Source: Microglena sp. YARC
Taxonomy: Eukaryota; Chlorophyta; Chlorophyceae; Chlamydomonadales; Chlamydomonadaceae
Direction of reading: 5' to 3'
Assembly (NCBI GenBank): GCA_022414725.1
Contig: CM039464.1
Coordinates: forward strand, 25,365,110 to 25,429,109
Length of the DNA: 64,000 nucleotides
The position numbers and the translations under genes are program-made. The notes under the pieces were generated by a model. That model was not told where the DNA came from, searched no databases, and saw only the letters and a list, made by a program, of their open reading frames with translations. Below, in pieces: positions 7,306 to 64,000 of this stretch; positions within the stretch are counted from its first letter, which is position 1; each line of letters begins with the position of its first letter.

Positions 7306-7432
7306 CTATGTAGCAAACTGCTCTTCTTCCGTGTAGAACTCCTCGTGAATGATCATTTCTGCTGTCTGCTGATACGGGTACCACATCGAAATGCGGTTCG
7401 CTTTATTTCGGTCTTGCATGTTGTATGTGATG
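7306..7432 (-). CDS. EML: EMSY-like exon 5 (end of Agenet domain, stop)
   Basis: The acceptor is ggcgatgcag. One base completes Cys185, then 41 codons run to TAG (7308-7306). The product begins ITYNMQDRNKANRISMWYPY and ends in an acidic tail with HEEFYTEEEQ. CITYNM then a Trp after about 13 residues parallels the LVYDI/M...W strands of Agenet domains. The phase fits exon 4 exactly although they are 30.4 kb apart, which is the strongest argument that the satellite lies inside one intron. A diverged second copy of the 3' part lies at 6797-6866. Confidence 0.8.
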
Positions 7433-9160
7433 CTGCATCGCCAAGATGGAGGGATTGGAAGTATGTGGTGGGTGAGTGTGGCGTGTGGTGAGGGTGTATG
7501 TAATGCTGTATGGCCAAGATGGAGAGAGTGTGAGTGTGAGTGTGTGGTGTGTGAGTGTGTGAGTGTGGTGTGTGGTGTGTGTGTATGTAATGCTGCAGGG
7601 TGATCGCCAAGATGGAGGGAGTGGGAGTGTGTGGTGTGTAAGTGTAGTGTGTGGTGTGTGAGTGTGGCGTGTGGTTGGTGTGTATGTCATGCTGCATCGC
7701 CAAGATGGAGAGAGTGGGAGTGTGTGGTGTGTGAGTGTGGTGTGTGGGTGTGGCGTGATGGGTGTGTATGTCATGCTGTATCGCCAAGATGGAGAGAGTG
7801 GAAGTAGGTGGTCGGTGAGTTGTGGCGTTGTGTGGGTGTGTATGTAATGCAGCATCGCCAAGATGGAGGGAGTGTGAGTATGTGGTGTGTGAGTGTGGTG
7901 TGTGGTGTGTGGGTGTGGCGTGATGGGTGTGTATGTCATGCTGTATCGCCAAGATGGAGGAAGTGTGGTGGGTGAGTGTGGCGTGTGGTGAGGGTGTATG
8001 TAATGCTGTATGGCCAAGATGGAGAGAGTGTGAGTGTGTGGTGTGTGAGTGTGTGAGTGTGGTGGGTGTGTATGTAATGCTGCATCGTCAAGATGGAGGG
8101 ATTGGAAGTATGTGGTGTGTGAGTGTGGTGTGAGGAGGGTGGGTGTGGCGTGATGGGTGTGTATGTCATGCTGTATCGCCTAGATGGAGGGATTGGGAGT
8201 GTGTGGAGTGTGAGTGTGGTGTGTGGCGTGTGAGTGTGGCGTGTGGTGGGTGTGCATGTCATGCTGCATCGCCAAGATGGAGGGAGTGTGGTGTGTGAGT
8301 GTGTGGTGTGTGAGTGTGTGTATGTGTGGGTGTATGCATGGGTGTGTATGTGTGTATGCATGGGTGTGTATGTAATGCTGCATCGCCAAGATGGAGTGAA
8401 AGATGAGAGAAAAAAGGGGGAAAGGGCGGCGGGGATTGGAAGTATATGGTGGGTGAGTGTGGCGTGTGGTGGGTGTGTATGTAATGCTGTATTGCCAAGA
8501 TGGAGGGATAGGGAGTGTCTGGAGTGTGAGTGTGGTGTGTGGTGTGTGAGTGTGGCGTGTGGTGGGTGTGTATGTAATGCTGTATCGCCAAGATGGAGGG
8601 AGTGTGGTGGGTGAGTGTGGCGTGTGTCAGTGTGTGGTGTGTGAGTGTGTGGGTGTGGTGTGTGATGGGTGTGTATGTAATGCTGTATCGCCAAGATGGA
8701 GGGATTGGAAGTATGTGGTGGGTGAGTGTGGCGTGTGGTGGTTGTGTATGTAATGCTGTATTGCCAAGATGGAGGGATAGGGGGTGTCTGGAGTGTGAGT
8801 GTGGTGTGTGGTGTGTGGTGTGTGACGTGTGGTGGGTGTGTATGTCATGCTGCATCGCCAAGATGGAGGGAGTGGGAGAGTGTGGTATGTAAGTGTAGTG
8901 TGGCGTGTGGTGGGTGTTTATGTAATGCTGCATCGCCAAGATTGAGGGAGTGTGAGTGTGTGGTGTGTGAGCGTGGTGTGTGAGATCGTATGGGTGTGTG
9001 AGTATGGTGTGTGGTGTGTGGGTGTGGCGTGATGGGTGTGTATGTCATGCTGTATCGCCAAGATGGAGGGAGTGTCGTGGGTGAGTGTGGTGCGTGGTGG
9101 GTGTGTATGTTATGCTGTGTTTCCAAGATGGAGGGAGTCGGGAGTGGTGTGGTGGGTGAG

Positions 9161-9227
<67 letters not shown>

Positions 9228-12200
9228 TGTGGTGTTGTGTCTGAACGGAGTGGGTAGGGTGGAGGGAGTGGGCTGAGGTGGAGGGTGTGGGTAGGGTAGA
9301 GTGAGTGGGGTGGGGTGAGTGGGTAGGGTAAAGTGAGTGGGGTGGAGTGAGTGGGTATGTAGGATGGTGTGAGTGAGTGGGAGTGAGTGGGGTGGAGTGA
9401 GTGGGTATGGTGGATGGAGTGAGTGAGTGGGTAGGGTAGAGTGAGTGGGGTGGATGGAGTGTGTGGGGTGGATGGAGTGAGTGGGAGTGAGTGGGTATGG
9501 TGGATGGAGTGAGTGGGAGTGAGTGTGTAGGGTGGAGTGAGTGGGGTGGAGTGAGTGGGGTGGAGTGAGTGGGTAGGGTGGATAAAGTGAGTGGGAGTGA
9601 GATTAAGTGGATGGAGTGGGATGAGGTGGAGGGTGTGGGTAGGGAGGATGGAGTGTATAGGGTGGAGTGAGTGTGTAGAGTGGAGTGAGTGGGGTGGATG
9701 GAGTGGGTAGGGTGGATGGAGTGAGTGGGAGTGAGATGAGGTGGATGGAGTGGGATGAGGTGGAGGGTGTGTGTAGGAAGGATGGAGTGTGTAGGGTGGA
9801 GGGAGTGTGTAGGGTGGAGGGAGTGGGATGAGGTGGAAGGGGTGGGAGTGAGATGAGGGTGTAGAGTGTAGGGTGTAGGGAGTGGGTAGGGTGGAGGGTG
9901 TGGGTAGGGTGGAGAGAGTGGTTTGGGTGGATCGAGTGTGTAGGGTGGAGGGAGTGTGTAGGGTGGAGGGAGTGGGATGAGGTGGAAGGGGTGGGAGTGA
10001 GATGAGGGTGTAGAGTGTAGAGTGTAGGGTGTAGGGAGTGGGTAGGGTGGAGGGTGTGGGTAGGGTGGAGAGAGTGGTTTGGGTGGATCGAGTGTGTAGG
10101 GTGGAGGGAGTGGGAGTGAGATGAAGGGAGTGGGTGTGTAGGGTGGAGGGTTTGGTCTGAGGTGGAGGGTGTGGGTAGGGTGGAGGGAGTGGGAGTGAGT
10201 TGGAGGGAATGGGTAGGGTGGAGGGAGTGGGTAGGGTGGAGGGAGTGAGAGTAAGATGGAGGGATTGAGAGTGAGATGGAGGGAGCGGGTAGGGTGGAGG
10301 GAGTGGGCTCAACCAAATCAAGTTGTAGTTTGTAAGAACACCGTCACCACAATCATAACAAGAGAGCATTGGGTCGCACCAAATCAAGTTGTGGTTTGTA
10401 AGAAGCAACACGGCCACCACAATCATAACAAGAGAGCATTGGGTCGCACCAAATGAAGTTGTCACAAGGGTTGTAGTTAGTAGCAACACATTCACGTCAT
10501 TCACAACTAGAAGATCATTACAAGTGTGCATTGGGTCGCGCCAAATGAAGTTTTCATGGGGGTTGCAGTTAATAGAAACACATTCACGTCATTCATAATT
10601 AGAAGATCACTACAAGTGTGCATTGGGTCTAACCAAATCAAGTTGTCATGGGGGGTGCAGTTTGTAAGAATACCATTACGACATTCACAACAAGTTTTTT
10701 TTAAAGTTGTGAAAGGACTTTCACCCAAGGAGGTGGGTCTCCGAACACAAACCAGCGACACAGAGGATTCAGTTCAAATGGTGGTGCCACTCCTACAATA
10801 TGCAAGTAGGGCATCAGGTCTTACCAAATCAAGTTTTTCATGGGGGTTGTAATTTAGTACACACACATTCACAACATTCATCATTAGATGATCAGTACAA
10901 GTGTGCATTGGGACTCACCAAATCAATTTTCATGGGGGTTGTGATTAGTAACAACTCCCTCTTTTCAAGTGTTGGTATCAAACTAATAGCAGTCATGATA
11001 CTCATATTGACGCTCATCGTAGAGAGTGTGCATTGGGACTCACCAAATCAAGTTGTCATGGAGGTTGTGGTTAGCAATTACGCATTCACGACATTCAGAA
11101 TCAGATGATCATTTCAAGTGTGCATTAAGACTCACCAAATCAAGTTGTCATGGAGGTTGTGGTTAGTAATAACACATTCACGACATTCAGAATCAGATGA
11201 TCATTTCAAGTGTGCATTAAGACTCACCAAATCAAGTTGTCATGGAGGTTGTGGTTAGTAATAACACATTCACGACATTCAGAGTCAGATGATCATTCAA
11301 TTGTGCATTAAGACTCACCAAATCAAGTTTGTCATGGAGGTTGTGGTTAGTAATAACACATTCACGACATTCAGAATCAGATGATCATTTCAAGTGTGCA
11401 TTAAGACTCACCACGCCATGGAGGTTGTGGTTAGTAATAACACATTCGGACATTCAGAATCAATTTTCCAGTGTGGGTTGTCAAGTTGTATGGAGGTTGT
11501 GTGTTAGTATAACACATTCACGACATTCAGAATCAGATGATCATTTCAAGTGTGCATTAAGACTCACCAAATCAAGTTGTCATGGAGGTTGGGTTAGTAT
11601 ACACAATCACGACAGTAACAAATTCACGACATCAGTGCGAGCAGAAGAGGAATCAGATGACATTTCTTCATTAGCAATGACGATCAGTGTGTTGCATTTG
11701 GGACTCACCCAATTTTCATGGGGGTGGGGGTTGTAATTAGTCACACATTGCATCATTAAGATGATCAGTACAAGTGTTGCATTGGGACTCACCAAATCTT
11801 TTTTCAGGTGGGTTGTAATTAGTAAACACACAAACATTCATCATTAGATGAGCAGTAACAAGTGTGATTGGGACTCACGCAATTCATTTTCATGGGGGTT
11901 TTGTGATGGGGGTTGTGTTAGTAACAATTTTCATGTTGGGTATCAAAACTAATAACAGTCATGTAATACTCATATTGACGCTCATCGTAGAGAGGTGTGC
12001 ATTGGGGAACTCACCAAATCAAGTTTGTCATGGAGGTTGTGGTTAGTTAATTACACTTCACGACATTCAGAATCAGATGTGTGGGTTTTCATTTCACCAA
12101 AATCTTGTAATAACACATTCGCACGACAGTATTGATCATATAGTTCAAGTGTGTCATTAAGACCTCACCAATCGGAGTTTGTGGTTATAATAACGACATC

Positions 12201-15200
12201 ACCAAGTTGGTCATGGAGTTGTGGTTTAGTAATAACACATCACGACATTTCAGAACCAGATCATCCATGGACTCACCATAATCAAGTTTTTCAGGTAGGT
12301 TGTAATTAGCATAGAATGGTACAAGTGTGGCATATGGACTCACCAATCAATTTTCATTAGTCATTCACAACATTCATCATTAGATGATCAGTACAAGTGT
12401 GCATTGGGACTCACCAAATCAAGTTTTCAGGTGGGTTGTAATTAGTAACAACACATTCACAACATTCATCATTAGATGAGCAGTACAAGTGTGCATATGG
12501 GACTCACCAAATCAATTTCATGGGGTTGTGATTAGTAACAACTCCTCTTTTCAATGTGTTGGAATCAAAACTAATAACAGTCATGATACTCATATTGGGA
12601 GAGAGTGTGCTTGGGACTCACCAAATCAAGTTGTCATGGAGGTTGTGGTTAGTAATTACACATTCACGACATTCAGAATCAGATGTTCATTTCAAGTGTG
12701 CATTAAGACTCACCAAATCAATTTGTCATGGAGGTTGGGTTAGTAATCAACACATTCACGACATTCAGAATCAGATGATCATTTCAAGTGTGCATTAAAG
12801 GTTGTCATGGGTTGTGGTTAGTAATCATTCACGACATTCAGATTGAATGGAGTTTCAAGTGTGCATTTAAGACTCACCAAATCAAGTTGTCTAGTATACA
12901 CACATTCACGACATTCAGAATATGATCATTTAACCGCAGTGATCGGTCAGTGTGTAACTAACACACTCACCCAAATAAGTTTTCACCAAGATCAGAGTAG
13001 TACATTATAACAACACATAAAAACAGAGAGTCACGACATTCATAAGAATCAGGATGATCCATCATTTTACAAGTTGTGCATGAGGACTCACAATCCATGG
13101 AGGTTGTTGGTTAGTAATAACACATTCACATCAGAAATGTTATGGGACTCAACAATAATCAAGTTTTCAGGGGGGTTAGTAAGATAAGTACAGTGTGCAT
13201 GGGACATCACCAAATCAAGTTTTCAGGTGGGTTGTAATTAGTAACAAACACATTCACAACATTCATCACTTTAGTATGTATGAGCAGACAAGTGATTGCA
13301 TTGGGACTCACCAAATCAATTTTCATGGGGTATGTGATTAGTAACAACTCACTTTTTCATGTGTTGGTATCAAACTAATAAACAGTCATGATACTCATAT
13401 ACTCATCATTGAGAGAGTGTGCATGGGTATACATTAGGTTTGGTTAGTGGGGGGGGGGTCACGGTTATTGAATCAGAACAAGTGTCCATTTAAGACTCAC
13501 CAAATCAAGTTTGTCATGGAGGTTTGTGTTTTAGTTAAGTTAATCACACGACATTCAGAATCAGATGTTTCATTTCAAAGTGTGCATTAAGACTCACCAA
13601 ATCAAGTTGTCATTGGAGGTTGTGGTTAGTAATAACACATTCACGGGAATTCCCCAGAATCAGATGATCATTTCCAAGTGTGCCATTAAGACTCACCAGA
13701 TACAAGTTGTCATGGAGGTGGGTTAGTTAATAAACATTCACTGACATCAGAATCAGATGAATTCATATCAAAGGTTGCATTAAGACTCACCAAATCAAGT
13801 TTGTCATCATGAGGTTGTGTAGTAATAACACATTCACGACATTCAGTAATCAGATGATCATTTCAAGTGTGCATTGACTCACCAAATCAATGATTTCAGG
13901 TGGGTAGTATTAGTAACAACACATTCACGACATTCATCATTAGATGATCAGTACAAGTGTGCATTTGGGACTCACAATCAATTTTCATGGGGGTTTGTAA
14001 TTAGTAACAACACATTCACAACATTCATCATTAGATGATCAGTACAAGTGGTGCATTGGGACTACCAAAATCAAAGTTTTCAGGTGGGTTGTAATTAGTA
14101 ACAACCACATTCACAACATTCATCATTAGATGAGCAGTTTTACAAGTGTGCATTGGGACTCTACCAAATCAATTTTCATGGGGATTGTTGATTAGTAACA
14201 ACTTCCATCCCTCTTTTCATGTGTTGGTATCAAACTAATCACCAGTCAATATACTCATAATTGCGCTCATCGTAGAGAGTGTGCATTGGGACCCACAAAA
14301 TAAGTTGTCATGGAGGTTGTGGTTTAGTAATAACGATGTCAGCGATGAATCAGATGTTCATTTTCAAGTGTGCTTAAGACTCACCAAATCAAAGCAATTG
14401 TCATGGAGGTTGTGGTTAGTAAGTAACACATTCACGACATTCAGAATCAGATGATCATTTCAAGTGTGCATTTAAGGACTCACGCAAATCAGTTGTCATC
14501 GCGAGGTATGTGGTTAGTAATAAACACATTCAGACATTCAGCATAATCAGATGATCATTTCAAGTGTGCATTAAGACTCACCAGAATCAAGTTGTCATGG
14601 AGGTTGTGTTAGTAATAACACATTCACGACATTCAGAATCAGCATGATCATTTCAAGTGTTGCATGGGGGACTCACAAATCTGTTTTCAGGTGGGTAGTA
14701 ATTCAGTAACAAACACATTCACGAGGACATTCATCATTTAGATGATCAGTACAAAGTGTGGCATTGGGACTCACCAAATCAATTTTCATGGGGGTTGTAA
14801 TTTTAGTAACAACACATTCACAACATTCATCATTAGATGATCAGTACAAGTGTGCATTGGGGACTCACCAAATCAAGTTTTCAGGTGGGTTGTAATTAGT
14901 AACAACACATTTCACAACATTCATCATTAGATTGAGCAGTACAAGTGTGCATTGGGACTCACCAAATCAATTTTCATGGGGGTTGTATTAGTAACACTCG
15001 TTTCTTTTATGTGTTGGTACAACTAATAAAAGTCATGATACTCATATTGACGGCTTCGTAGAGAGGTGTGCATTGACTCACCAAATCAGTTGCAATGGAG
15101 GTGGTTAGTAATTACAACATTCCGATTATTTTCAGAATAATGTTAATTTCAGTCATAAGATACAATAAGTTGTCATGGAGGTTGTGGTTAGAATAACACA

Positions 15201-18200
15201 TTGTCACGCTCAGAATCAGAATGTACGGTCAAGTGTGCATTAAGACTCCCAAATCAAGTGCATGGAGGTTTGGTTAGTAATACACATTTCACGAACACAG
15301 ATCAGATGAACATTTCAAGTGTCATTAAGACTCACCAAATCAAGTTGTCATGGAGGTTGTGGTTGTAATGGAACACATTCACGACATTCAGAATAATTAT
15401 TTCAGTGTTGCATTGGACTCACCGAAATCATGTTTTTCAGGTGGGTATAATTAGTAACAACACATTCAGACATCAATCATTAGAGATCATACAAGTTCAT
15501 GGGACTCACCAAAATCATTTTCATGGGGGTTTGTAATTTGTACAACACATTCACAACATTCATCATTAAGATGATCAGTAAGTGTGGCATTGGGACTCAC
15601 AAATCAAGTTTTTAGGTGGGTTGTAATTAGAACACCATTGCACAACATTCATCATTGATGAAGTACACAGTGTCATGGACTTCACCACAAATCCATTTTC
15701 ATGGGGGTTGTGGATTAGTAACAACTCCTCTTTCATCGTGTTTTTGGTTATCAAACTAATAACAGTAATGATACATAATTGACGTCATGTAGAGAGTGTG
15801 CATGGGACTCAAAAACCCAAAAAAAAAATTCCCCAGTTTGGTTCCCCAAAAAATGGAGGGTTGTGGTTAGTTAATTACAATTCTCAGACATTCAGAATGA
15901 TGTTCATTTCAAGTGTGCATTAAGACTCACCAAATCAAGTTGGTCATGGAGGTTGTGTGGTTAGTAATAACACATTCCTAATGCAGCAACAGATGACATT
16001 TCAAGTGTGCATTAAGACTCACAAATCAGTTTGTCAATGGAGGTTGTGGCTAGTAATAACACATTCACGACATTCAGAATCAGATGATCATTTCAAGGTG
16101 CATTGGAGCTCACCAAATCATGTTTTCAGGTAGGTTGTAATTAGTAACAACACATTCACAACATTCAATCATAAGATGATCAGTACAAGTTGTGGCATTG
16201 GGACTCACCAAATCAATTTTCACGGGGGTTGTAATAGTAACAAACATTCACAACATTCATCATTAGATGATTCAGTACAAGTGTGCATTGTGGAACTCAC
16301 CAAATCAAGTTTTTCAGGTGGGTTGTAAATAGTAACAACACATTCACACATTCATCATTAGATGAGCAGTACAAGTGTGCATTGGGACTCACCAAATCAA
16401 TTTTCATGGGGGTTGTGATTCAGTAACAACTCCCTCTTTTCATGTGTTGGTATCAAACTAATAACAGTCATGATACTCATATTGACGCTCATCGTAGAGA
16501 GTGTGCATTGGGACTCACCAATCAAGTTTTCATGGAGGGTTGTGGTTAGTAATTACACATTCACGACATTCAGAATCAGATGATCATTTCAAGTGTGCAT
16601 TAGAGCACTCACCAAAAATCAAGTTTGTCATGGAGGTGTGGTTAGTAATTACACATTCACGACATTCAGATCCTTAATGCAGCATGATCATTTCAAGTGT
16701 GCATTAAGTTTACTTCACCGAAAATTCAAGTTGTCATGGAGGTTGTTGGGTTAGTAATAAACACATTTCACGACATTCAGAATCAGATGATCATTCAAGT
16801 GGTGCTTAAGACTCACCCCACCAAATCAAGTTCTTCGTCATGGAGGTTGTGGTTAGTAATAACACATTCACGACATTATCAGCAATCAGCATGATCATTT
16901 CAAGGATGCATATAGGACCTCACCAAATTTCAGTTTCATGCGTAGTTGTTGGCGTTAGTATACACAATTCACGACATTCAGATTCAAGGATGATCATTTC
17001 AATGTAGCGTATAAGACTCACCAAACTAGCCGTCTGTCATGGAGGTTGTTGAGTTTTCAGTAATAAATCACATATTCACGCATTCAGAAATCAGATGATC
17101 ATTTCAAGTGTGCATTTAAGAACTCACAAATCAAGTTTCATGGAGTGCTTGTGGGTTAGTAATAACATCAGTGTCACGACATTCAGAATCAGTATGATCA
17201 TTTCATGTGTGCATCTGGGACTCACCAAATCATCTTTCATGTGGTGGTATGTAATTGTAACAACATTTCACAACAATTTCGGATCATTAGACTGAGCAGT
17301 ACAAGTGTTGCATTGGGACTCACCCAAACAATTTTCATGGGTTGTAATTCAGTAACAACGACATTCAACATTCATCTTAGATGATCTAGTAAAGTGTGCA
17401 TTGGACTCACCAAATTCAATTTTCATGGGGGTTTGTATGATAGTAAACAAACAACATTCCAACATTCATCATTAGATGATCAGTTTACAATTTGCATGGG
17501 ACTCACCAAACTCAAGTGTCAGGTGGCGTTGTAATTTAGTAACAACACATTCACAACATTCATCAATTATATGAGCAGTTACAAGTGATGCATTGGGACT
17601 CACCAACATCAATTTTCATAATGCGGGGTCTGTGGATTAGTAACAACTCCTCTTTTAGTTGTTAGGTTATCAAACAATAATCAGATAAATGATACTCCAT
17701 ATTGACGCTTCATCGTACGAGGGTGTGATACAGATCACCAATCAAGTGTCATGGAGGTTGTGGTTTAGTAATTAACAATTCGACTTGACATAATTCTCAA
17801 GAATCAGATTGATCTATTTCTACTGTGTGCTTAAGACTCACCAAATCAAGGTGTTCATGGAGGTTGTGGTTATATAGAACACATTGTCAGCGACATACAG
17901 AATCAGATGATCATTTCTAGAAGTGTTGCATTAAAGCTCACCAGAATCAAGGGTTGTCATTGGCGGTTGTGAGTTGTTAGTAATAACCCTATGTGTCACG
18001 ACATTCAGATCAGATGATCATTTCAAGTGTGCATTAAGGACTCACCAAATCAAAGTTTGTCATGGAGGTTATGGTTGTAATAACACATTCACGACATTTC
18101 AGAATCAGAATGATCATTTCAGTGCTTCATTGGGACTCACCAATGACAATTGTCAATGGAGGTTGTGTTGGTTTCAAGTAATCAACACATTCACGCGTTT

Positions 18201-45938: not shown

Positions 45939-45976
<38 letters not shown>

Positions 45977-51900: not shown

Positions 51901-52104
51901 CTTCTCAGGAGGCCATCAAGAATCTTCCAGAAAACATGTGGGATGACAAAGAGGCTGGCATGTCCACTGCCCCTCCATTGTCTTGAACCTGCTTCCCCTG
52001 CTCGCCCTGCCACCTCCCTTGTCCCCCTTACCCCTTCTACCGCCCCTGCGCCCCCTTTCCCCTCTGCCCCTCCCCCTCACACACACCCCCACCCCACCCC
52101 ACAC

Positions 52105-52140
<36 letters not shown>

Positions 52141-55100: not shown

Positions 55101-56291
55101 ACCGCTTTCCGTACTACGAGTACTTTAGGGACGTTTTGGAGCCACTCATTTTGGAGGTGAGCGAGGTTGATGCAAAATGCAGCGCCTGGGGGTGGGACTG
55201 CTGTTTTTCTTTTCGGCTGAGGAGATTGGATCAATTACATTTTGATAAGAATGCATAGCTTTTGATTGTTTTGATCACGCTGCTGCTGCTGCTGCTTATA
55301 ATGGTGATGATGATGATGATGATGATGATGTTGATGACGATGATGATGTTGATGCCGATGATGCCGATGATGATGATGATGATGACATTTTCTTGGCAAT
55401 TATTTGTACTGCCCGATATGGCAACACCAAATTGCTGGCTATGTAACCAAGTTCAAGTTCATTTTTCTTTTCAACTACGTGCAGCAGCTGCTAGGAAGCC
55501 CCCTGAACCAGCCTCAGGCCTGACCCAAGAGATTGCAGCAGTGCTGGTTATCCGATTGTGATAGGTGCACTACCGTGCTTTATGTTTGGCAGAATTACCT
55601 TGTAAAAATTAAATTTGAATTCAATATGGACAAAAAATTGCAGAATTGCGCAAGGGAGGGGGGGCAAAAAAGTGAAAGACCCCATCCTCCCAAAGTGCTG
55701 AGGCACCCTTCTGCAGACCCCCCCCCCCCCCCCCCCCGGCTCCGGAACCCACTGTACAGTCACTATCTCAGCCACCACTTAGTGTAATGCTGTAATGGTG
55801 TCTAATTAGGCTCATTTTACAGGGTTTTCACAGACCTATCCATTGAAGTTGGTCTAGAGACCATTGGGAATAATTGGAACATAGAGAATCATCATCACCT
55901 ATGTTACATTGTTTGGTAGGGCTTGGGGGTCAGGGCCCCTTGGCCCCTAATGTGCCCACCTTCAATATTATTCAATTATCAGGCCTTCAATAATCAGGCC
56001 TTCAATAATCAGTTCTTCAATCCAAGCTTCAATGAGGCATAAAATAATCAGGTCTTCAATCCAAGTTTCAATCAGGCATTAAATAATCAGCTCTTCAATC
56101 TAAGTTTCCGTGGTCGCCGCTAAGCAATTGTTTACCGCACTTGTCACAGGTAGTGCCCTTTGATTGTCGGTCCAACGAATAACATCAATTAGCACAAGTC
56201 ACCAGAACGAAAACAGAAGGGAAGGGAAAAAGAAGAATGAGGTCTCGCTCTGTACGTCGATGTACAAGTGTTGGTCAGGGCGTTGTGTGTG

Positions 56292-56353
<62 letters not shown>

Positions 56354-59300
56354 CTGTTCCCCCCCCCCCCCCCCCCCCCCCCCATGTGCCCTGGGCAAAA
56401 TATGTGGTGGGTCTCTCCCCCAATAGCATTTTTGGACTGGTATTTAGTAGAGGAAAACCCTAGTTCCACTCCCATGTCATTCTGAGGGCTTGAAAAAAAG
56501 TACCTGGAAAGTATATAATTTTTTGAAAATGTCAGATTTTTTCCTTCCCCCCCCCCCTCCCCCGTTCGGCCCCAAACTTAGGAGGACCGTTACTTTTTTT
56601 CTACTGGGCCAAATCAAGAAATAAAACCGGATTCTTCAACCTCTCTATGATATCTACAAAGTTGGACGATGGGGTCATTTTGGTTAGAAGTAGCCCCCCC
56701 CCTGGAATTATGTTGTAAATACCAAATTTGAATACAAATGTGATGATACAGATCTTTGGGCCTGATAGCTTGACAAGGGTGATTCAAATTTGAATTAAAT
56801 TCAAACTTTGATGTCAAGACAAAGATCTCTGGAACTGGTGGCTTAAGGAGTGTTATTCAAATTTGAATTTAATTCAAACAAGAGATGTGATGACAAGGAT
56901 CTTGGGACCTGGTGGCTTGTTTAGTGTTATTCAAATTTAAATTCAAAACAAGCTTAGATGTGATGACAAAGATCTTGGGACCTGGTGGCTTAGCGAGGGT
57001 TGTTCAAATTTGACGACGGTTATTCAATTTGACAACGATTATTCAAATTTGGCGAGGGTTATTCAAATTTGGCGACGGTGATCAAGTTTAGCGAGGGTTA
57101 TTCAAATTTGGCGACGGTGATCAAGTTTGGCGAGGATTATTCAAATTTGGCAAGGGTTATTTAAATTTGACGACGATTATTCAAATTAGGCAAGGGTTAT
57201 TCAAATTTGACGACGGTATTTCAATTTTGACGACGGTTATTCAAATTTGGTGAGGTTTATTAAAATTTGATGACGGTTTTGCAAATTTGAATCCAAATCG
57301 GATCAACTTGGGTGAGGTGATGCAGATCTTTGGTTCTGGCGATATATGACCAGGTTTATTCAAATTTTACTAGGGTCATTCAAATTTGACGACGGTTGTG
57401 CAAATTTGAATTCAACTTGGATCAACTTGGGTGAGGTGATGCAGATCTTCAGTCCTGTCAGTATGCTGTGGTTACCATGTAGGAGGATGACCATGTCCAC
57501 ATGACCATGTAGACACTATGTTGTACTCCAGCCCCTGGTAGAAGCAGCTTTGACTAGGTTTATTCAAATTTGAAGACGGGTGTGCAAATTTGAATTCAAC
57601 TTGGATCAACTTGGGTGTGGTATTGCAGATCTTGGGTCCCCAAATTTGACGTCGTTTTTCAAATTTGAATTCGAAGTGGATACTTGAATGTGATGTTGCA
57701 GATCTTGGGACCTGGCGGATTGACAAGAGTAATTCCAATATGACAATGTTTTTTCAAATTTGACGTCGTTTTTTTCAAATTTGAATTCAAAGTGGATACT
57801 TGAATGTGATGTTGCGGATCTTGGGACCTGGTAGATTGATAGTGGTTCAAAGAAGACGATGGGTTTTTAAATTTGACGTCGTTTTTTCAAATTTGAATGT
57901 GATGTTGCAGACCCGGTGGATTGACAAGAGTGGTTCGAATATGACGATGCTTTTCGAATTTGACGTCGTTTTTTTCAAATTTGAATTCAATTTCGATTTT
58001 TGAATGTGATGTCGCAGATCTTGGGACCTGGCGGACTGACAAGAGTGGTTCGAATGCAATTCGCTCGGATGCCTCCTGGTGGAGTCATCCACCTCCATCC
58101 AGATGGGGGGGCTTTGCCCACAAGGCACACCGCATACATGTGCCTATCTTTACAAACCCAAATGTGTCGTTCCAGGTGAGCAGGCTATAAATAAATGTAA
58201 ATAAGTATAAATAAATATAAATAGATAATCTTGTAAATAATGCATGTTAAATGCATACATGTGCCTATGTTCACAAACCCAAATGTGTCGTTTCAGGTGA
58301 GCAGGCTATAAATAAATGTAAATAAGTATAAATAAATATATGTATAAATATTGAATACTAAATGCATACATGTGCCTATCATCACAAACCCAAATGTGTC
58401 ATTTCAGGTGAGCAGGCTATAAATAAATGTAAATAAGTATAAATAAATATATGTATAAATATTGAATACTAAATGCATACATGTGCCTATCTTCACAAAC
58501 CCAAATGTGTCGTTTCAGGTGAGCAGGCTATAAATAAATGTAAATAATTATAAATAAATAAATAAATATAAATACTAAATGCATACATGTGCCTATCTTC
58601 ACAAACCCAAATGTGTCGTTTCAGGTGAGCAGGCTATAAACATATGTAACGCATAATAAATATAAAATGGATACATGTGCCTATCTTCACGAGCCCAAAT
58701 GTGTCGTTTCAGGTGAGCAGGCTATAAATTAATGTAAATACGTATAAATAAGTATAAATTGTAGAAACCTGAGTATAAATATATAACAAATATTCAATGC
58801 ATACATGCGCCTGTCTTAACATGAACCCAAATGTGTCATTTTTATGTGAGCAGGCTATAAATAAATAAAAATAAGTATAAACAGGAGAACCCCGTGAGAA
58901 CCTGAGTATAAAGAAATATAAATAAGTAACAAATATTAAATGCATATATGTGCCTATGTTCACAAACCCAAATGTGTCGTTTCAGGCGAGCAGGCTATAA
59001 ATAAATGTAAAAAATATAAATAAATGTAAAAAGTATAAATAAATGTAAATAGTATAAATAAATGTAATAAGTATAAATAAATGTAAAAAGTATAAATAAA
59101 TGTAAATAGTATAAATGAATGTAAAAAGTATACATAAATGTAAATAGTATAAATAAATGTAAAAAGTATAAATAAATGTAAAAAGTACAAATAAATGTAA
59201 ATAGTACAAATAAATATAAAAAGTACAAATAAATGTAAATAGTACAAATAAATGTAAACAGTACAAATAAATGTAAATAGTATAAATAAATGTAAAAAGT

Positions 59301-59536
59301 ATAAATAAATGTAAATAGTATAAATAAATGTAAAAAGTATAAATAAATGTAAATAGTATAAATAAATGTAAATAGTATAAATAAATGTAAAAACTATAAA
59401 TAAATGTAAAAAGTGTAAATTAATGTAAAAAGTATAAATACATGTAAATAATATTAAATATTAAATGCATACATGTGCCTATCTTCACAAACCCAAATGT
59501 GTCGTTTCAGGTGAGCAAGCTATAAATAAATATACA

Positions 59537-59568
<32 letters not shown>

Positions 59569-61339
59569 ATATAAAGTATGCCTTATTACGAGGTGTGAGG
59601 TTGAGGGGGCCAGCCCGTTTGCTTGCACTGGGGCCAACTACCAAGTGATCTAGGCTACTTGTACTGAAATCCTGAAATCAGGCTTGAGTTGCAACTTTAG
59701 CTACCGTACTGGCACACAAATTTGACGGTTGGAAATTATCGTTGAAGGTGAGCGGTCTGAGATAATAGGACAGAGCAGCAGCCTGTGCACCCCACTCACC
59801 CCACTCAACCCCGCCTTTTCTACACATATAAAGTTTCACGTGAGCAGGCTGAGAGAATCAGACAGAGCAACGGCCTATGCACCCCCACCCCCACCACACC
59901 ACACCACACCACCACTACTTTCATCCCTCCAACTTGGTTCGAGAATCCTTTCAGATATGCCCTAAGCTGGTACAAAGCTGCACAGAACATGATCTCCCGC
60001 TCAGTGAACCCTACAAAAACTTAATCCTAAACCCTAACCCTGGTTCAGATATGCCCTAAGCTTGTACAACGCTGCACAAAACAAGATCTCCCGCTCGGCA
60101 AACCCTAAAAACCTGTCCCCCTTATATCTAAACCCTGAACACTAAACCCTAAACCCTGGTTCAGATATGCCCTAAGCTTGTCTAACGCTGCAAAGAGCAA
60201 GGTCTCCCTCTCAGTGAACCCTACATAAAAAACGAACTCCTAAACTCTAAACCCTGAACCCTAAACCATAAAACCTTGACCGGGGTTCAGATATGCCCTA
60301 AGCTTGTTCAACGCTGCAAAGAGCAAGGTCTCCCTCTCAGAGAACCCTAAAGAAAAACGAACCTCTAAACTATAAACCCTGAACATTGCTAAAGAATGAA
60401 GAGTCGGGGGTTCGACTCCCCCTTCGGTCGCTCTTGGCGTTGCAGGTCGTCGTCAACCGCGATGGTAGCTTGTCCAGTTGAGGTAGGAGACCGCTCCCCA
60501 CCCGCGTACGACGGGCTCCCTTAACACCACGCCCCATCAGGCGTTATTATTACTTTTTTTAAACCCTGAACCCTAAACCCTGGTTAAGATATGCCTTAAG
60601 CTTGTCCAACGCTGCAAAGAGCAAGGTCTCCCTCTCAGAGAACCCAAAAGAAAAACGAACCCCTAAACTCTAAACCCTGAACCTTAAACCCTTGACCCTG
60701 GTTCAGATATGCCCTAAGCTTGTCCAACACTGCAAAGAGCAAGGTCTCCCTCTCAGAGAACCCTAAAGAAAAACGACCCCCTAAACTCTAAACCCTGAAC
60801 CCTAAACCCTGAACCCTGGTTCAGATATGCTCCAAACTTGTCCAACGCTGCAAAGAGCAGGGTCTCCCTCTCAGTGAACCCTACAGAAAAACGACCCCCT
60901 AAACTCTAAACCCTGAACCCTGAACCCTGAACCCTAAACACTTAACCTTGGTTCAGATATGCCCTAAGCTTGTCCGACGCTGCAAAGAGTAAGGTCTCCC
61001 TCTCAGAGAACCCTAACGAAATACAAACCCCTAAACTCTAAACCCTGAACCCTGAAACCTAAACCCTGAACCCTGAACCCTAATCACTTAACCATTTGTC
61101 AGATATGCCCTAGGCTTGTCCTACGCTGCAAAGAGCAAGGTCTCCTTCTCAGAGAACCCTAAATAAAAACAAACCCCTAAACCCTGAACCCTGGTTCAGA
61201 TATGCCCTAAGCTTGTCCAACGCTGCAAAGAGCAAGGCCTCCCTCTTGGCGAACACCGGATCACTGAGACCTCCGACTGTGTTGAGGTGCCTATGGAGGA
61301 AGGCATTGTCAGTGAAATCAACAATGTGGTCGCTCATAG
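45396..61339 (+). CDS. Aspartyl/asparaginyl beta-hydroxylase-like type II membrane protein (5' part; continues past window)
   Basis: Six exons are visible: 45396-45755, 49262-49396, 52153-52264, 55056-55156, 58018-58175 and 61200-61339. Codon phases agree at each junction (0, 0, 1, 0, 0), and exon 6 ends in phase 2 at a GTAAGA donor. About 335 residues are visible. A basic N-terminus and one membrane segment (about 23-41) suggest a Golgi or ER type II topology. Residues 256-289 carry the HxD iron motif (HPD) and RIHVPIFTNP. Residues about 320-335 carry EEGIVSEINN and then His. These are hallmarks of the Asp/Asn beta-hydroxylase family (Fe(II)/2-oxoglutarate), which hydroxylates Asp, Asn or related side chains of lumenal substrates. 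The 2-oxoglutarate-binding Arg should lie in exon 7, beyond the window. Exon 5 needs a one-base frame correction. Confidence 0.8.
45756..46205 (+). repeat. Donor-side junction array of hydroxylase exon 1 (three in-frame 66-nt exon copies)
   Basis: Copies at 45835-45900, 45984-46049 and 46131-46196 translate to RDLTQGLETVALTR then QLLADL, as in exon 1 (RDLTQGLETVAMAR, QLLADL). Each is preceded by an AG and followed by GTAG, phase 0 at both ends. Spacers are CA repeats. Confidence 0.88.
46206..47400. repeat. CA-rich minisatellite and ~130-bp repeat in hydroxylase intron 1
   Basis: 46206-46870: units of about 75 bp with CATGCAACCAGCAATCTGGC and CACTCGCGCACACATGCGCA. 46915-47400: about four units with TCTTTCCCTATC, TGGTGTCCCGGACAGCAC and CTTCCCAGCTTCACACAAG. 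Confidence 0.8.
48172..48360 (+). repeat. Interspersed family ATTCCGCTATATA-AGCGATCGCTA, copy 2
   Basis: Homologous to 43303-43490, inserted in the acceptor array of hydroxylase intron 1. Confidence 0.65.
48764..48957. mobile_element. hAT-like MITE, copy 1 (194 bp)
   Basis: Terminal inverted repeats are CAGGGTACTTCAAA and, reversed, CAGGGTAATTCAAAG. The interior is dense in AGCGC / GCGCTTT motifs. The flanks carry TACCAGACAA at 48753-48762 and 48958-48967. The related array unit at 47540-47580 (CTACCAGAAGACCCCC) is uninterrupted and serves as an empty site. No coding capacity. Confidence 0.82.
49262..49396 (+). CDS. Hydroxylase-like exon 2
   Basis: There are 45 codons in phase 0 at both ends, from acceptor gatccattcag to CAG|GTGTGA. 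The product reads GYASKIGGTWASG, then HLDVKLKQTKRFWEAG, then LALAKVDVSAVQ. It is a membrane-distal helical segment without a recognised motif. The reading frame is supported by phase agreement with exons 1 and 3. Five acceptor-side copies (GYASKIGG) precede it, and about 18 donor-side copies (VDVSAVQ plus donor) follow it. Confidence 0.75.
49397..50085 (+). repeat. Donor-side junction array of hydroxylase exon 2 (37-bp minisatellite)
   Basis: About 18 units of GTTGATGTGTCAGCAGTACA, GGTGTGACTTTGTTGAG. The first part is the end of exon 2 (VDVSAVQ) and the second its donor and first intron bases. Identity is highest next to the exon and falls toward 50.05 kb. Confidence 0.9.
50130..51870 (+). 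repeat. Polypyrimidine minisatellite before hydroxylase exon 3
   Basis: Units of about 45-60 bp: TTGTCGCCCTTACCCCTTCT, ACCTCCCCTGCCCCC, CTTTCCCCCTGCCCCCTCCC. The coding strand is almost purine-free for 1.7 kb and leads straight to the exon 3 acceptors at 51908 and 52152. It generates Pro/Leu-rich frames of no coding meaning. Confidence 0.85.
51909..51985 (+). pseudogene. Acceptor-side copy of hydroxylase exon 3
   Basis: After cttctcag it reads EAIKNLPENMWDDKEAGMS, then TAPPLS and TGA. It matches exon 3 for 16 codons with three substitutions and then diverges. Use of this acceptor would end the protein prematurely. Confidence 0.8.
52153..52264 (+). CDS. Hydroxylase-like exon 3
   Basis: The exon has 37 codons plus one base, from acceptor ctcttctcag to donor gtatgtg. 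The product reads EAIKNLPEKMWDDNEARVSN then AMVEGRDANMANIKPGC. The final G joins GT of exon 4 to form Gly203. No family motif lies here, but the phase agreement and the repeated use of its borders support a true exon. One acceptor-side copy lies at 51909, and about eight donor-side copies lie at 53.3-54.7 kb. Confidence 0.78.
52375..52710 (+). mobile_element. tRNA-derived SINE, copy B, interrupted by a MITE
   Basis: A box TGGTCTAGTGG at 52387-52397 and B box GGTTCGACTCC at 52430-52440 have tRNA-correct spacing. The T stem is perfect (GGGGG/CCCCC) and the D stem is intact, but the anticodon stem does not pair. The body matches copies A and C, ends at CAGGCGTTAT (52710), and is split by the insertion at 52545-52684. 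Confidence 0.82.
52545..52684. mobile_element. 140-bp MITE with 24-bp inverted repeats and TA target duplication
   Basis: The ends start TAGCAATTCAG and are inverted over 24 bp with two mismatches. TA flanks both sides (52543-52544, 52685-52686). The SINE at 60395-60560 reads CTCCCTTAACACC across the site with a single TA, so the empty site is present in this window. The TA duplication suggests mobilisation by a Tc1/mariner-type transposase. Confidence 0.88.
52735..53236 (+). repeat. (TTACC)n pentanucleotide array at the SINE tail
   Basis: About 75 nearly perfect TTACC units to 53121, then imperfect units with AGTAGTACCTTT. It follows directly from the SINE 3' end GCGTTATGAGTACCTTT, suggesting the array grew from the SINE tail. 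Confidence 0.88.
54116..54310. mobile_element. hAT-like MITE, copy 2 (195 bp)
   Basis: Ends are CAGGTTACTTAAAA and, reversed, CAGGGTGATTCAAAG. Flanks GCCAGGAC and GCCAGGTC form an imperfect 8-bp duplication (7 of 8). The interior is nearly identical to copy 1 with AGCGC motifs. Some host sequence is missing on the right. Confidence 0.78.
54330..54512. mobile_element. hAT-like MITE, copy 3 (183 bp, more diverged)
   Basis: Inner termini GGTACTTCCA and, reversed, GGTTCTTCCA. Flanks GTGGATAT and ATGGATAT match at 7 of 8 bases. It is shortened and has lost several GCGC motifs. Confidence 0.68.
54708..54768 (+). repeat. GGATATGCTATGT 14-bp tandem repeat
   Basis: Four to five copies, apparently grown from the downstream part of the last donor-array unit. 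Confidence 0.75.
54880..54965 (-). repeat. Interspersed family GTCAGAATT-GCCTTCC
   Basis: The reverse complement matches 63825-63895: GGCTRAA-TAGTCAGAATT, GCCTTCC-TCGC, GAGCTACG-AAGGCC and GTTGGC. Two copies in opposite orientation. Confidence 0.6.
55056..55156 (+). CDS. Hydroxylase-like exon 4
   Basis: Two bases complete Gly203, then 33 codons run to GAG|gtgagc. The acceptor is ggctgcatgcag. The product reads TIFLVFSDQMAEHAYRFPYY then EYFRDVLEPLILE. The hydrophobic strand followed by an amphipathic helix rich in aromatic residues fits the region just before the catalytic barrel. Neither border has an obvious junction array, the only exon here without one on either side. Confidence 0.78.
55266..55385 (+). 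repeat. (GAT)n trinucleotide array
   Basis: GATGATGATG with GCT and GCC variants, inside hydroxylase intron 4. No junction copies are seen at this donor. Confidence 0.85.
55700..56600. other. Intron 4 simple-sequence stretch
   Basis: C runs at 55719-55737 and 56360-56383, (GA)n at 56293-56352, and AATCAGGCCTTCAAT repeats at 55975-56100. No exon seen. Confidence 0.6.
56740..58017 (+). repeat. Acceptor-side junction array of hydroxylase exon 5
   Basis: About ten copies of GATG--GCAG|ATCTTGGGACC, TGGCGGATTGACAAGAG (near 56750, 56825, 56903, 56970, 57325, 57445, 57628, 57700, 57815 and 57910) match the acceptor and exon start ILGPGGLTR. Spacers are GTTATTCAAATTTGACGACG repeats. Confidence 0.82.
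58018..58175 (+). CDS. Hydroxylase-like exon 5: HxD iron-binding segment, frame broken in a G run
   Basis: The acceptor is gatgtcgcag and the donor is CAG|gtgagc. From the acceptor, phase 0 reads ILGPGGLTRVVRMQF, ARMPPGGVIHLHPDGG. From the donor backwards, the other frame reads GFAHKAHRIHVPIFTNPN, VSFQ. The two meet in a run of seven G (58105-58111). One extra G gives 53 codons, phase 0 at both ends, and a continuous Asp/Asn beta-hydroxylase signature with PPGG-IH-HPDGG and R-HVPI-TNP. HPD supplies two of the three iron ligands. The break is most likely a homopolymer assembly error; a real pseudogenising indel is the alternative. Confidence 0.78.
58176..59560 (+). repeat. Donor-side junction array of hydroxylase exon 5
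   Basis: Eight copies (near 58252, 58366, 58476, 58580, 58671, 58798, 58944, 59468) read ATACATGTGCCTATCTTCAC, AAACCCAAATGTGTCGTTTC, AG|GTGAGC, i.e. IHVPIFTNPNVSFQ and donor. Spacers are ATAAATAAATGTAAATAGT repeats, pure from 59000 to 59450. Several copies differ from the exon at silent positions. Confidence 0.9.
59578..59660 (-). repeat. Interspersed family GGTTGGCCCCAATGCAAGC, copy 3
   Basis: The reverse complement shares the GCCCCAGTGCAAGCAAACGG, GCTGGCCCCCTCAACCTCAC core with copies at 5085 and 43138. Confidence 0.6.
59950..61199 (+). repeat. Acceptor-side junction array of hydroxylase exon 6 with telomere-like spacers
   Basis: Nine copies (borders near 59954, 60049, 60164, 60290, 60585, 60704, 60824, 60954, 61095) read GGTTCAG|ATATGCCCTAAG, CTTGTCCAACGCTGCAAAGA, GCAAGGTCTCCCTCTCAG, matching exon 6 (ICPKLVQRCKEQGLPL). 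Spacers are ACCCTAAACCCTGAACCCTA variants resembling plant-type telomeric repeats. Confidence 0.88.
60395..60560 (+). mobile_element. tRNA-derived SINE, copy C (5'-truncated, uninterrupted)
   Basis: It begins within the tRNA-like anticodon region (GAAGAGTCGGGGGTTCGACT), continues through GGTAGCTTGTCCAGTTGAGG and CTCCCTTAACACCACGCCCC, and ends GCGTTATTATTACTTTTTTT. It lacks the MITE present in copy B and sits inside the exon 6 acceptor array. Confidence 0.82.
61200..61339 (+). CDS. Hydroxylase-like exon 6: second part of the double-stranded beta-helix
   Basis: There are 46 codons plus two bases, from acceptor ggttcag to CATAG|GTAAGA. The product reads ICPKLVQRCKEQGLPLGEHR, then ITETSDCVEVPMEEGIVSE, INNVVAH. 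In Asp/Asn beta-hydroxylases the sequence G-V-E-NN---H supplies the distal iron-binding His after the HxD, and EEGIVSEINNVVAH fits that. Nine acceptor-side copies precede it and a 2.6-kb donor-side array follows it to the window edge. Confidence 0.8.
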
Positions 61340-63347
61340 GTAAGAATGTCAACATGAAATCAACACTGTGTCAGTGTAATTCAGAGTCTTAGTGAAGTTA
61401 ACACTGTGTCAGTGTAATTCAGAGTCTTAGTGAAATTAACAATGTGTCAGTGTAATTCAGAGTCTTAGTGAAATTAACACTGTGTCAGTGTAATTCAGAG
61501 TCTTAGTGAAATTAACAATGTGTCAGTGTAATTCAGAGTCTTAGTGAAGTTAACACTGTGTCAGTGTAATTCAGAGTCTTAGTGAAATTAACAATGTGTC
61601 AGTGTAATTCAGAATCTTAGTGAAGTTAACACTGTGTCAGTGTAATTCAGAGTCTTAGTGAAATTAACACTGTGTCAGTGTAATTCAGAGTCTTAGTGAA
61701 ATTAACACTGTGTCAGTGTAATTCAGAGTCTTAGTGAAATTAACACTGTGTCAGTGTAATTCAGAGTCTTAGTGAAATTAACAATGTGTCAGTGTAATTC
61801 AGAGTCTTAGTGAAGTTAACACTGTGTCAGTGTAATTCAGAGTCTTAGTGAAATTAACACTGTGTCAGTGTAATTCAGAGTCTTAGTGAAGTTAACAATG
61901 TGTCAGTGTAATTCAGAGTCTTAGTGAAATTAACACTGTGTCAGTGTAATTCAGAGTCTTAGTGAAGAAATTAAACGTGTCAGTGTTCAGAGAAATTCTT
62001 AGTTAGTGTTCAGAAAATTAACACTGTGTCAGTGTAATTCAGAGTCTTAGTGAAATTAACAATGTGTCAGTGTAATTCAGAGTCTTAGTGAAATTAACAC
62101 TGTGTCAGTGTAATTCAGAGTCTTAGTGAAATTAACAATTTTTAGTGAAATTAACAAGTCTTAGTGAAATTATGTGTCAGTGTAATTCAGAGTCTTAGTG
62201 AAATTAACACTGTGTCAGTGTAATTCAGAGTCTTAGTGAAATTAACAATGTGTCAGTGTAATTCAGAGTCTTAGTGAAATTAACACTGTGTCCAGCTGTG
62301 TCCAGCTTTGTCCGTATAATTTCTGTTGTCAGTGGAATCAACAATGTGGTCGCTCATAGGTACGAATGTCAACATGAAATTAACAATGTGTCTGTGTAAT
62401 TCAGAGTCTTAGTGAAATCAACAATGTCGTCGCTCATAGGTAAGAATGTCAACATGAACTGAACAATATGCCAGTTAAATACTCAATGTTAGTGAAATCA
62501 ACAACATGCCAGTGTAGTATATAGTAAATAGGTAACATCTTGTATGTCAGTATCTGAAATCAGCAATGCCGTCGCTCATAGGTAAGAATGTCAACATGAA
62601 ATGAACAATAGGCCAGTTAAATATTCAATGTTAGCAGATGTTAGTGAATTTAACACTGTGTCCGTATAATTGACATTATCAGTGAAATCAACAATGTTGC
62701 TCAATAGGTAAGAATGTGAATGTGAAATCAACAATATGTCAGTATAATTCAGAGTGTTAGTGAAATCAACAATATGTCAGTATAATTCAGAGTGTTAGTG
62801 AAATCAACAATATGTCAGTATAATTCAGAGTGTTAGTGAAATCAACAATATGTCAGTATAATTCAGAGTGTTAGTGAAATCAGCAATGTCGTCGCTCATA
62901 GGTAAGAATGTGAATGTGAAATCAACAACATGCCAGTTAAATATTCATTGTCAGTGAAATCAACAATGTCGCCGCTCATAGGTAAGAATGTCAACATGAA
63001 ATTAAAAATGTGTCACTGTAATTCAGAGTCTTAGTGAAGTCAGCAATGTCGTCGCTCATAGGTAAGAATATGAATGTGAAATCAACAGTAGGTCCGGATA
63101 TGTCAGATGAATTATTAGTATCAGAGAAATCAGCAATGTTGTTGCCCAATAGGTAAGAATATGAATGTGAAATCAACAATAGGTCCGGATATGTCAGATG
63201 AATTATTAGTATCAGAGAAATCAGCAATGTTGTTGCTCAATAGGTGAGAATATCAACATGACATGAACAATGTGTCAGTAGAATGAGAAATTTCAGTGAA
63301 ATCGACATTACGGTATGCCAGTTAATTTTACAATGTTAGTGAAATCC

Positions 63348-63402
63348 ACGTCCTGTGAATAACTGTATTACACGGATGTAACAATTTCAATTTCAATTTC
63401 AC
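63348..63402 (+). mobile_element. AATTTC-tail retroposon, 5'-truncated copy
   Basis: CACGTCCTGTGAATAACTG, ACACGGATGTAACAATTT and CAATTTCAATTTC are inserted between two TTAGTGAAATC units of the host array. The flanking repeat could be a target duplication or simply the array unit. Confidence 0.6.
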
Positions 63403-63764
63403 TTAGTGAAATCGACGCTGTGTCCATATAATTTACATTGTAAGCGAAATCAACAATGCGTCAGCATGATTCATAGTGCCAGTGAAAGCAACAATGCCGT
63501 TGCTCGGTAAAACTGTGAATGACAAATCAACAGTATGCCCTGATGTGCCAGTTAAATTTGAAATGTTAGTGAAGCAAGAATGCGTCAGTATAACTCATAG
63601 TGCCAGTGAAATCAACAATGTTTTTGCTCATAGATAAAAGTGTGAATGACAAATCAACAGTATGCCCTGATATACCAGTTCAATTTGCAATGTTAGTGAA
63701 ATCAACACTGTCTCCCACTGTGTCTGTATAATTTATATTGTCAGCGAAATCAACAATGTTGTTG

Positions 63765-63897
63765 GCAGTTTTTTTTACGGCGACGCGTCGCCACTGCGTC
63801 GCCCACCCATCGTGGCTGGGCGACGCATGGTTTTGGCTAAACTAGTCAGAATTTGCCTTCCGTCGCCCACGGAGCTACGGAAGGCCATTGGCCAATC
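63765..63897 (+). mobile_element. Insertion of a GCGACGCGTCGC-containing element in the exon 6 donor array
   Basis: It interrupts the unit CAACAATGTTGTTGG and is followed by GAATTCAACAATGTGGTTG. It contains GCGACGCGTCGC and TGCGTCGCCC / GGGCGACGCA inverted repeats and the family shared with 54880-54965. GACGCGTCG also occurs near 4768 and 47462. Confidence 0.55.
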
Positions 63898-64000
63898 TGA
63901 ATTCAACAATGTGGTTGCTCATAGATAAAACTGTGGAAGTGAAATTTGCAATGTTAGTCAAATCAACACTGTGTCCCGCGGTGTCCGTATAATTTGTATT

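Follow-up and report, generated by a model that had tools for sequence, protein, structure and literature searches.

About half of the intron ends examined in Microglena sp. YARC carry, within the intron, tandem copies of the splice junction at that end. The copies are real and not limited to the window, i.e. the whole stretch of 64,000 nucleotides analyzed here, in which they were first noticed. The best explanation, to which we assign a probability of roughly 0.7, is that random local tandem duplications straddling exon borders gave rise to the arrays, and that these would do no harm provided the site next to the exon is the one spliced.

Both genes of the window were rebuilt exon by exon, which gave 19 intron ends (Table 1). 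The EMSY-like ENT-domain gene lies on the minus strand and has five exons, the ENT domain being found for exon e2, and the hydroxylase-like gene lies on the plus strand with six exons inside the window. Exon by exon, the sequences matched three predicted EukProt proteins (P0001–P0003) at approximately 91–100%. Most of the rebuilt exon joins were present in these models, which also included decoy copies: copies of the starts of e4, h3 and h7 were called coding sequence, and the hydroxylase gene was split between two models. Frame slips were present in the window exons. A Pfam search of the genome with PF05118 gave no match, which says little because its controls matched nothing either. ARAGORN and Rfam found nothing in the window, nor did a plasmid near-DNA search with one 1-kb piece.

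Table 1. Exons of the two window genes and junction-copy arrays at their intron ends (window positions).
Feature	Position	Strand	Remark
EMSY-like exon e1	44059..44163	-	donor without array
e2 acceptor copy (weak, 9 edits)	42735..43020	-	
EMSY-like exon e2	42151..42260	-	
e2 donor copies, 62 nt of exon + GTAAGT	41002..42051	-	
e3 acceptor array, 5 copies, ~44 nt of exon	39915..40580	-	
EMSY-like exon e3	39632..39782	-	
e3 donor array, 9 copies, 33-61 nt of exon	38695..39588	-	
e4 acceptor copies, up to 125 nt of exon	38247..38690	-	one is coding sequence in EukProt P0003
EMSY-like exon e4	37811..37998	-	
e4 donor array, 92-bp satellite, 223 junction copies	10314..37759	-	each unit 40 nt of exon + GTGAGT; interrupted by a run of N at 22841-23840, copy number and length as assembled
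e5 acceptor array, ~11 nt of exon	7494..9079	-	5 copies by 36-nt probe, 18 by local alignment
EMSY-like exon e5 (last exon)	7306..7432	-	open frame to its stop codon; outside EukProt models
Hydroxylase-like exon h1	45396..45755	+	
h1 donor array, 3 copies, 72-76 nt of exon	45829..46230	+	AG upstream and GT downstream in some copies
h2 acceptor array, 5 copies, ~38 nt of exon	47829..49070	+	
Hydroxylase-like exon h2	49262..49396	+	
h2 donor array, 37-bp unit, 18 copies, 23 nt of exon	49397..50085	+	
h3 acceptor copy, 63 nt of exon	51880..51983	+	coding sequence in EukProt P0002
Hydroxylase-like exon h3	52153..52264	+	
h3 donor array, 6 copies, 58 nt of exon	53315..54720	+	
Hydroxylase-like exon h4	55056..55156	+	array at neither end
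h5 acceptor array, 3-4 copies, 38 nt of exon	56957..57940	+	
Hydroxylase-like exon h5	58018..58175	+	slip of one base in a run of G compared with P0001
h5 donor array, 8 copies, 44 nt of exon	58252..59540	+	
h6 acceptor array, 9 copies, 55 nt of exon	59940..61157	+	
Hydroxylase-like exon h6	61200..61339	+	
h6 donor array, 29-42 nt of exon	62326..63941	+	17 copies in window, 20 in whole intron

Junction copies were searched with probes of 36 nt (26 nt of exon and 10 nt of intron), allowing up to nine edits. Own-intron copies were detected at 16 of the 19 intron ends, while the same probes found copies in none of the 171 cells in which they were set against other introns. At all 16 positive ends the best copy (0–9 edits) was closer than the best shuffled probe (minima 9–12; 60 shuffled probes per junction, 20 for the 30-kb intron). 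Two acceptors were weak cases: at e2 the best copy had nine edits and an exonic reach of 4 or 18 nt, depending on which of two measurements was used, and at e5 the exonic reach was mostly 11 nt. Three copies were present also at a 20th end, the acceptor of hydroxylase exon 7 just beyond the window. The search thus recovered the arrays that the initial annotation had described at 16 of 19 ends in two genes on opposite strands, and the three ends without an array were exactly those it had named (EMSY-like intron 1 donor, hydroxylase intron 3 acceptor and hydroxylase intron 4 donor).

Ten chaperonin genes and three pieces of tRNA-synthetase genes, picked regardless of repeats, served for comparison. 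Of 64 family matches, the analysis took only those within the ten fetched loci, and ends with an unplaceable border (including L024 exon-2, L029 exon-3 and the outer ends of first exons) were excluded before counting. Own-junction copies were detected at 30 of the 70 remaining chaperonin ends against 4 of 2,520 off-target cells, and at 4 of the 8 tRNA-synthetase ends against 0 of 320. Pooled, the samples gave 34 of 78 ends against 4 of 2,840 cells, so the excess over other introns holds outside the window as well. The pattern was thus seen at 13 loci besides those of the window, on five contigs. It is not universal: 44 of the 78 ends in these genes had no copies, and when ten paralogous ends were compared, the array was confined to one paralogue in six. 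The chaperonin intron regions were 0.3–7.5 kb long. For CCT6, the closest matches with a name, at 79%, were in Sanguina aurantia, Chlamydomonas sp. UWO 241 and Myrmecia bisecta, and Cymbomonas matched at 72%.

The copies carried one border only, either an exon end with the donor or the acceptor with an exon start (46 arrays, the e2 acceptor being a weak case), and their exonic reach varied from 11 to 180 nt with a median of 52. Within arrays the copies differed among themselves. In 24 of 45 arrays the first copy was joined head to tail, within 10 nt, to the piece of intron that had been duplicated, with units of 37–519 bp; in the other 21 it was not, and later insertion or loss must be assumed there. 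Donor copies lay 5' of every acceptor copy in all 16 introns having both, six of them in the window, and a 17th intron agreed. In the chaperonin genes, coverage at the border (14/37 donors, 14/33 acceptors) remained level 150 nt inside the intron (17/35 and 14/31, respectively) but fell to 1/37 and 0/32 at 150 nt inside the exon.

These observations bear out part of what had been concluded about the arrays from the window. The unit is indeed an exon border with its splice dinucleotide, donor and acceptor copies are not mixed, and the seeding of each array by its own local junction agrees with the empty off-target cells and with words of 25–26 bases from the e4 donor, h2 donor and h6 acceptor arrays, which had 35, 14 and 6 matches in the 568-Mb genome, all in their own intron. 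The view that one rule explains most satellites held for the window introns, where it covered 89% of tandem-repeat bases, but not for the chaperonin sample, where it covered 33% of the intronic tandem-repeat bases. Copies of one segment at both intron ends, expected from AGGT-type intron gain, were absent as stated; this origin is rejected because donor and acceptor copies share no segment in any of the 16 introns.

Duplication probably does not favour the splice junction as such. In the chaperonin regions 30 of 78 arrays spanned a junction, compared with about 43% expected from random 165-bp duplications, a rough estimate that uses a single unit length, weights introns equally and includes eight of 37 regions probably containing exons that could not be placed. 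As the two values are close, junctions need not be special targets. An alternative is that an R-loop, snRNP-protected RNA copied back into DNA, or breakage makes junctions preferred starting points of arrays. The share of junction-spanning arrays in the window (16/19 against 45% expected) is in line with this, although the window was chosen for this very feature, and the acceptor AG is kept slightly better in the copies (p = 0.027). On the other hand, the unselected chaperonin sample shows no such surplus, the exonic end points are scattered over 11 to 180 nt, and plain intronic arrays are also common (48/78 in the chaperonin regions), which makes such splice-linked seeding rather unlikely.

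The nearest decoy, if used, would shift the frame or add a stop in 44 of the 46 arrays (395 of 397 copies), and we therefore infer that splicing must choose the exon-proximal sites. The same count argues against the copies being working alternative exons or mini-exons. The EukProt models do treat the e4, h3 and h7 start copies as coding, and some copies, such as those of the h1 donor, have both an upstream AG and a downstream GT, but the models are predictions and the copies end inside the exon, with the other border missing, so that this explanation appears very improbable. Tandem exon duplication in the strict sense, with whole exons, both borders and the frame kept, is not what the arrays show, as the copies are partial and the frame is broken in 44 of the 46 arrays.

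There is little sign of selection on the copies. The donor GT was kept at 0.90 compared with 0.90 and 0.87 in its flanks (p = 0.20), which gives no clear signal, and the acceptor AG at 0.93 compared with 0.90 and 0.86 (p = 0.027), a weak one. In the 92-bp array the GT reached 0.992 against 0.926 at the remaining non-exonic positions, but this profile is biased because the units were found with a motif containing GTGAGTC; divergence along the same array is unreliable because of the run of N and its noisy flanks. That selection maintains the arrays for a role in splicing or expression, perhaps as a reserve of splice sites, might be read from the better kept acceptor AG and from the splice 9-mer, which is unchanged in 241 of 397 copies (165 of these in one array, the remainder being 76/174). 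The donor GT is nevertheless kept no better than its flanks, copies are absent at 44 of the 78 ends in other genes, and 6 of 10 paralogous ends differ; we consider a function hardly probable.

Even less can be said for a dispersed satellite or a mobile, introner-like element landing at splice sites. Tandem repeats are abundant in the genome (in eleven 10-kb stretches chosen arbitrarily, their share varied from 0.3% to 100%), and interspersed repeats occur within introns, but the unit is different in each intron, as the off-target counts in the window (0/171) and in the other genes (4/2,840) show, and for the three arrays searched genome-wide this origin is ruled out by words found in their own intron only. 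An assembly artefact, with long-read repeats misjoined or inflated, is just as improbable. The run of N with noisy flanks inside the 92-bp satellite and the frame slips in exons speak for it; the same pattern at 13 other loci, the non-identity of the copies and, if the EukProt models come from a separate assembly, their inclusion of array copies speak against it.

Random local tandem duplication thus remains the preferred reading. Such duplications would often straddle a splice junction, so that 11–180 nt of exonic sequence end up in the intron. They may be products of replication slippage, of unequal exchange or of break repair, and could later expand as ordinary satellites do. Duplications within exons would be purged, whereas border-crossing ones would survive because the exon retains one intact border and the surplus goes to the intron. 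Among sites that are locally alike, the spliceosome would then use the donor and the acceptor nearest to the exons, at the outer edges of the intron, and pass over the decoys, in other words follow an exon-centred rule. More tentatively, and with the odds somewhat against it, strict exon-centred splicing may be what lets introns grow by copying their own junctions, with the more than 100 decoys with authentic motifs that one intron can hold being ignored by position alone and the arrays forming a standing supply of new exons, as is hinted by the gene models that already contain copies.

If the preferred reading is true, border-crossing duplications forgiven by splicing are a concrete route to longer introns, and should the sampled rate hold genome-wide, the genome offers very many natural tests of how the spliceosome chooses among copies that are locally identical. 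The differences in arrays between paralogues make it possible to trace how intronic satellites arise. The decoys called coding, and the hydroxylase gene split over two models, are also a warning for annotation.

The satellites of the gigantic introns of Drosophila are not known to derive from the gene's own junctions, unlike the arrays described here. Those introns are filled with satellites, reach megabase size and are still spliced (PMC6508621); the e4–e5 intron, with 69% tandem repeat, resembles them in content but at 30,378 bp is far below them in size. In relatives of Chlamydomonas, introns are longer than in other compact genomes (median 198–343 bp) and the driver is unknown (PMC8226300), compared with chaperonin regions of 0.3–7.5 kb and one 30-kb intron here; junction arrays were not found in the excerpts of that account. 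The initial annotation knew of no described feature that matches, and this stood in part: a single border-crossing tandem duplication is in print (PMC4974935), while satellite arrays of own junctions on such a scale had no match in the open-licence literature searched. In that case, the potato RdRp gene, one tandem duplication over an intron-exon boundary gave one new intron (PMC4974935). The copies here likewise span one intron-exon border, but existing introns are lengthened, with up to 223 copies in an array and at about half of the checked ends. In the Rogers model of intron gain from AGGT segments (PMC4974935), tandem duplication also spreads splice signals; here, however, no new intron is formed, the unit is one existing border, and donor and acceptor units differ. 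Finally, whether an exon-centred or an intron-centred proximity rule decides which of the competing splice sites is used has been inferred by others (PMC10228655), and the natural decoy arrays, through their reading frames, would imply the exon-centred rule in this genome.

When the exon-intron junctions of the window were compared with their own and with other introns using a 36-nt probe allowing at most nine edits, copies in the own intron were found at 16 of the 19 junctions (1 to 223 copies each), and in none of the 171 combinations of a junction with another intron. The initial annotation had described own-junction arrays at 16 of 19 intron ends, and the three exceptions named in it were exactly the three junctions that lacked copies in this search. 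The acceptor of hydroxylase exon 7, just beyond the window, likewise had three copies. About 27 kb of the 30-kb intron in the EMSY-like gene consists of a 92-bp satellite with 223 copies, the unit of which includes 40 nt of exon end and GTGAGT. This satellite is broken at window positions 22841-23840 by approximately 1,000 N, and the flanks of the N run resemble uncorrected long-read sequence, so both the length and the local divergence of the array are uncertain.

The window corresponds to positions 25365110-25429109 of contig C3 in a genome of 568 Mb in 2,390 contigs, and the six contigs touched by the analysis measure 18.6-195 Mb each. The EMSY-like gene has a joined frame that is open for 226 codons and ends at a stop, and its Pfam ENT match scored 29.2 bits against a cut-off of 28.5. 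The hydroxylase-like gene was named from the Pfam domain PF05118 in the predicted EukProt protein P0001, while our own joined protein gave no match in Pfam. Its exon 5 shows a one-base slip within a G run relative to P0001, and the single gene is broken into two consecutive EukProt models, P0002 and P0001. Exon by exon, the predicted proteins P0001-P0003 match the window genes at about 91-100%, and the chaperonin protein CCT6 of this genome matches P0004 at 100% over 92% of the query; with matches this close, EukProt includes either this organism or one very near to it. The closest named matches of CCT6 were green algae (79% identity).

Genes and other repeats placed in the window
Feature	Start	End	Strand	Remarks
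EMSY-like gene, ENT domain	44163	7306	-	5 exons placed
Hydroxylase-like gene	45396	61339	+	6 exons placed in window
CAT/ATG-rich long tandem array	3263	4612		outside both genes; 72-81-bp periods
Interspersed element with tRNA-like stretch	52385	52545		SINE-like by eye; 92-96% copies at 60385-60523, twice in genome stretch L007, also in L028
TTACC pentanucleotide run	~52720	~53130		lengthy; separates hydroxylase exon 3 donor from its copies
Interspersed repeat	54101	54330		copies at 48762-48957, 54342-54488 and in L001, L007, L012, L016, L027

Ten chaperonin genes (Pfam PF00118) on five contigs, picked without looking at repeats, provided 70 ends at which the match to the family, together with splice motifs and the reading frame, set the borders. 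Own-intron copies were found at 30 of these ends (donors 15/37, acceptors 15/33), eight of the 37 regions probably including exons that could not be placed. Only 4 of 2,520 off-target combinations had a copy, and all four junctions came from genes for which the set also contains a paralogue. In three short fragments of tRNA-synthetase genes, 4/8 ends had copies, against 0/320 off target, which gives 34 of 78 ends for the two samples combined. P0004 agrees with five of the six CCT6 joins used and exits exon 4 earlier. In a CCT4-like gene (L022 position 4229, reverse strand of C2:52780900-52789500), a GC-AG intron is likely, as the donor AG|GCAAGT is needed if the frame is to be kept. Unlike the other genes, the chaperonin matches at C6:13962293-13963762 and C5:11283081-11284901 are intronless, each covering nearly the full length of the family within a single open frame.

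Local seeding, as originally proposed, was borne out for three arrays by 25-26-base words taken from them: the genome-wide counts were 35, 14 and 6, and every match lay in the single own intron. Also the proposed separation of donor and acceptor arrays held: donor copies lay 5' of every acceptor copy in all 16 introns with both kinds. Among ten homologous ends of paralogous genes, an array was present in one paralogue only at six, in both at two and in neither at two, and where both had arrays the exonic reach differed (18 vs 42 nt and 180 vs 91 nt), which suggests that arrays arise repeatedly.

In most window arrays the copies end at nearly one exonic point; the donor arrays of EMSY-like exons 3 and 4 and the acceptor array of exon 4 have two classes of end point, and the donor array of hydroxylase exon 6 is variable. 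Copies in 46 arrays extended 11-180 nt into the exon, with a median of 52 nt, and the first copy lay a median of 173 nt from its source. In 24 of 45 arrays, the units of which measure 37-519 bp, the first copy abutted the duplicated intron piece to within 10 nt. Copy coverage in the chaperonin genes was 1/37 for donors and 0/32 for acceptors 150 nt inside the exon, 14/37 and 14/33 at the border, and 17/35 and 14/31 at 150 nt inside the intron. Tandem duplications whose end points are scattered would produce such a profile.

In the chaperonin regions, 30 of 78 minisatellite arrays cross a junction, compared with 43% expected by a rough estimate in which 165-bp segments are placed at random on the non-array part; in the window, which had been chosen for this feature, the figure was 16 of 19 against 45% expected. 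Junctions therefore need not be hot spots. The claim that one rule explains most satellites here stood for the window introns, where 89% of intronic tandem-repeat bases are homologous to junction units; in the chaperonin genes the share is 33%. Eleven arbitrarily placed 10-kb stretches had tandem-repeat shares from 0.3% to 100%; one of them, L011 (C1:20000000-20009999), is tandem repeat throughout.

Use of the nearest decoy, i.e. the splice site of a copy, would cause a frame shift or introduce a stop codon in 44 of 46 arrays; counted by copy, this holds for 395 of 397, copy borders being exact only where no indel intervenes. Since decoys would break the frame this often, we infer that the exon-proximal sites must be the productive choice. 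According to a review (PMC10228655), an intron-centred rule takes the innermost site pair and an exon-centred rule the exon-proximal sites; the former would bring the arrays into the mRNA, and the genome, judged by its sequence, implies the latter. Some EukProt models include decoys as predicted coding sequence: a second copy of the start of EMSY-like exon 4 in P0003, and decoys of hydroxylase exons 3 and 7 in P0002 and P0001, respectively.

Averaged by array (23 donor and 23 acceptor arrays), the donor GT was retained in copies at 0.90, compared with 0.90 and 0.87 for the flanks (p = 0.20), and the acceptor AG at 0.93, compared with 0.90 and 0.86 (p = 0.027). These rates fit a mostly neutral decay of the copies, and leave room for a weak selective effect on acceptors. 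The splice 9-mer of the authentic site was intact in 241 of 397 copies: 165 of the 223 in the 92-bp array and 76 of 174 in the remaining arrays.

The initial annotation knew of no described feature that matches these introns. This stands for own-junction arrays across a genome, as no report of introns built genome-wide in this way was found in the open-licence papers searched, but single tandem duplications over an intron-exon border are in print, e.g. in a potato RdRp gene (PMC4974935). Giant introns filled with satellite are known from Drosophila (PMC6508621). We rate the scale and outcome as undescribed and the process itself as known.
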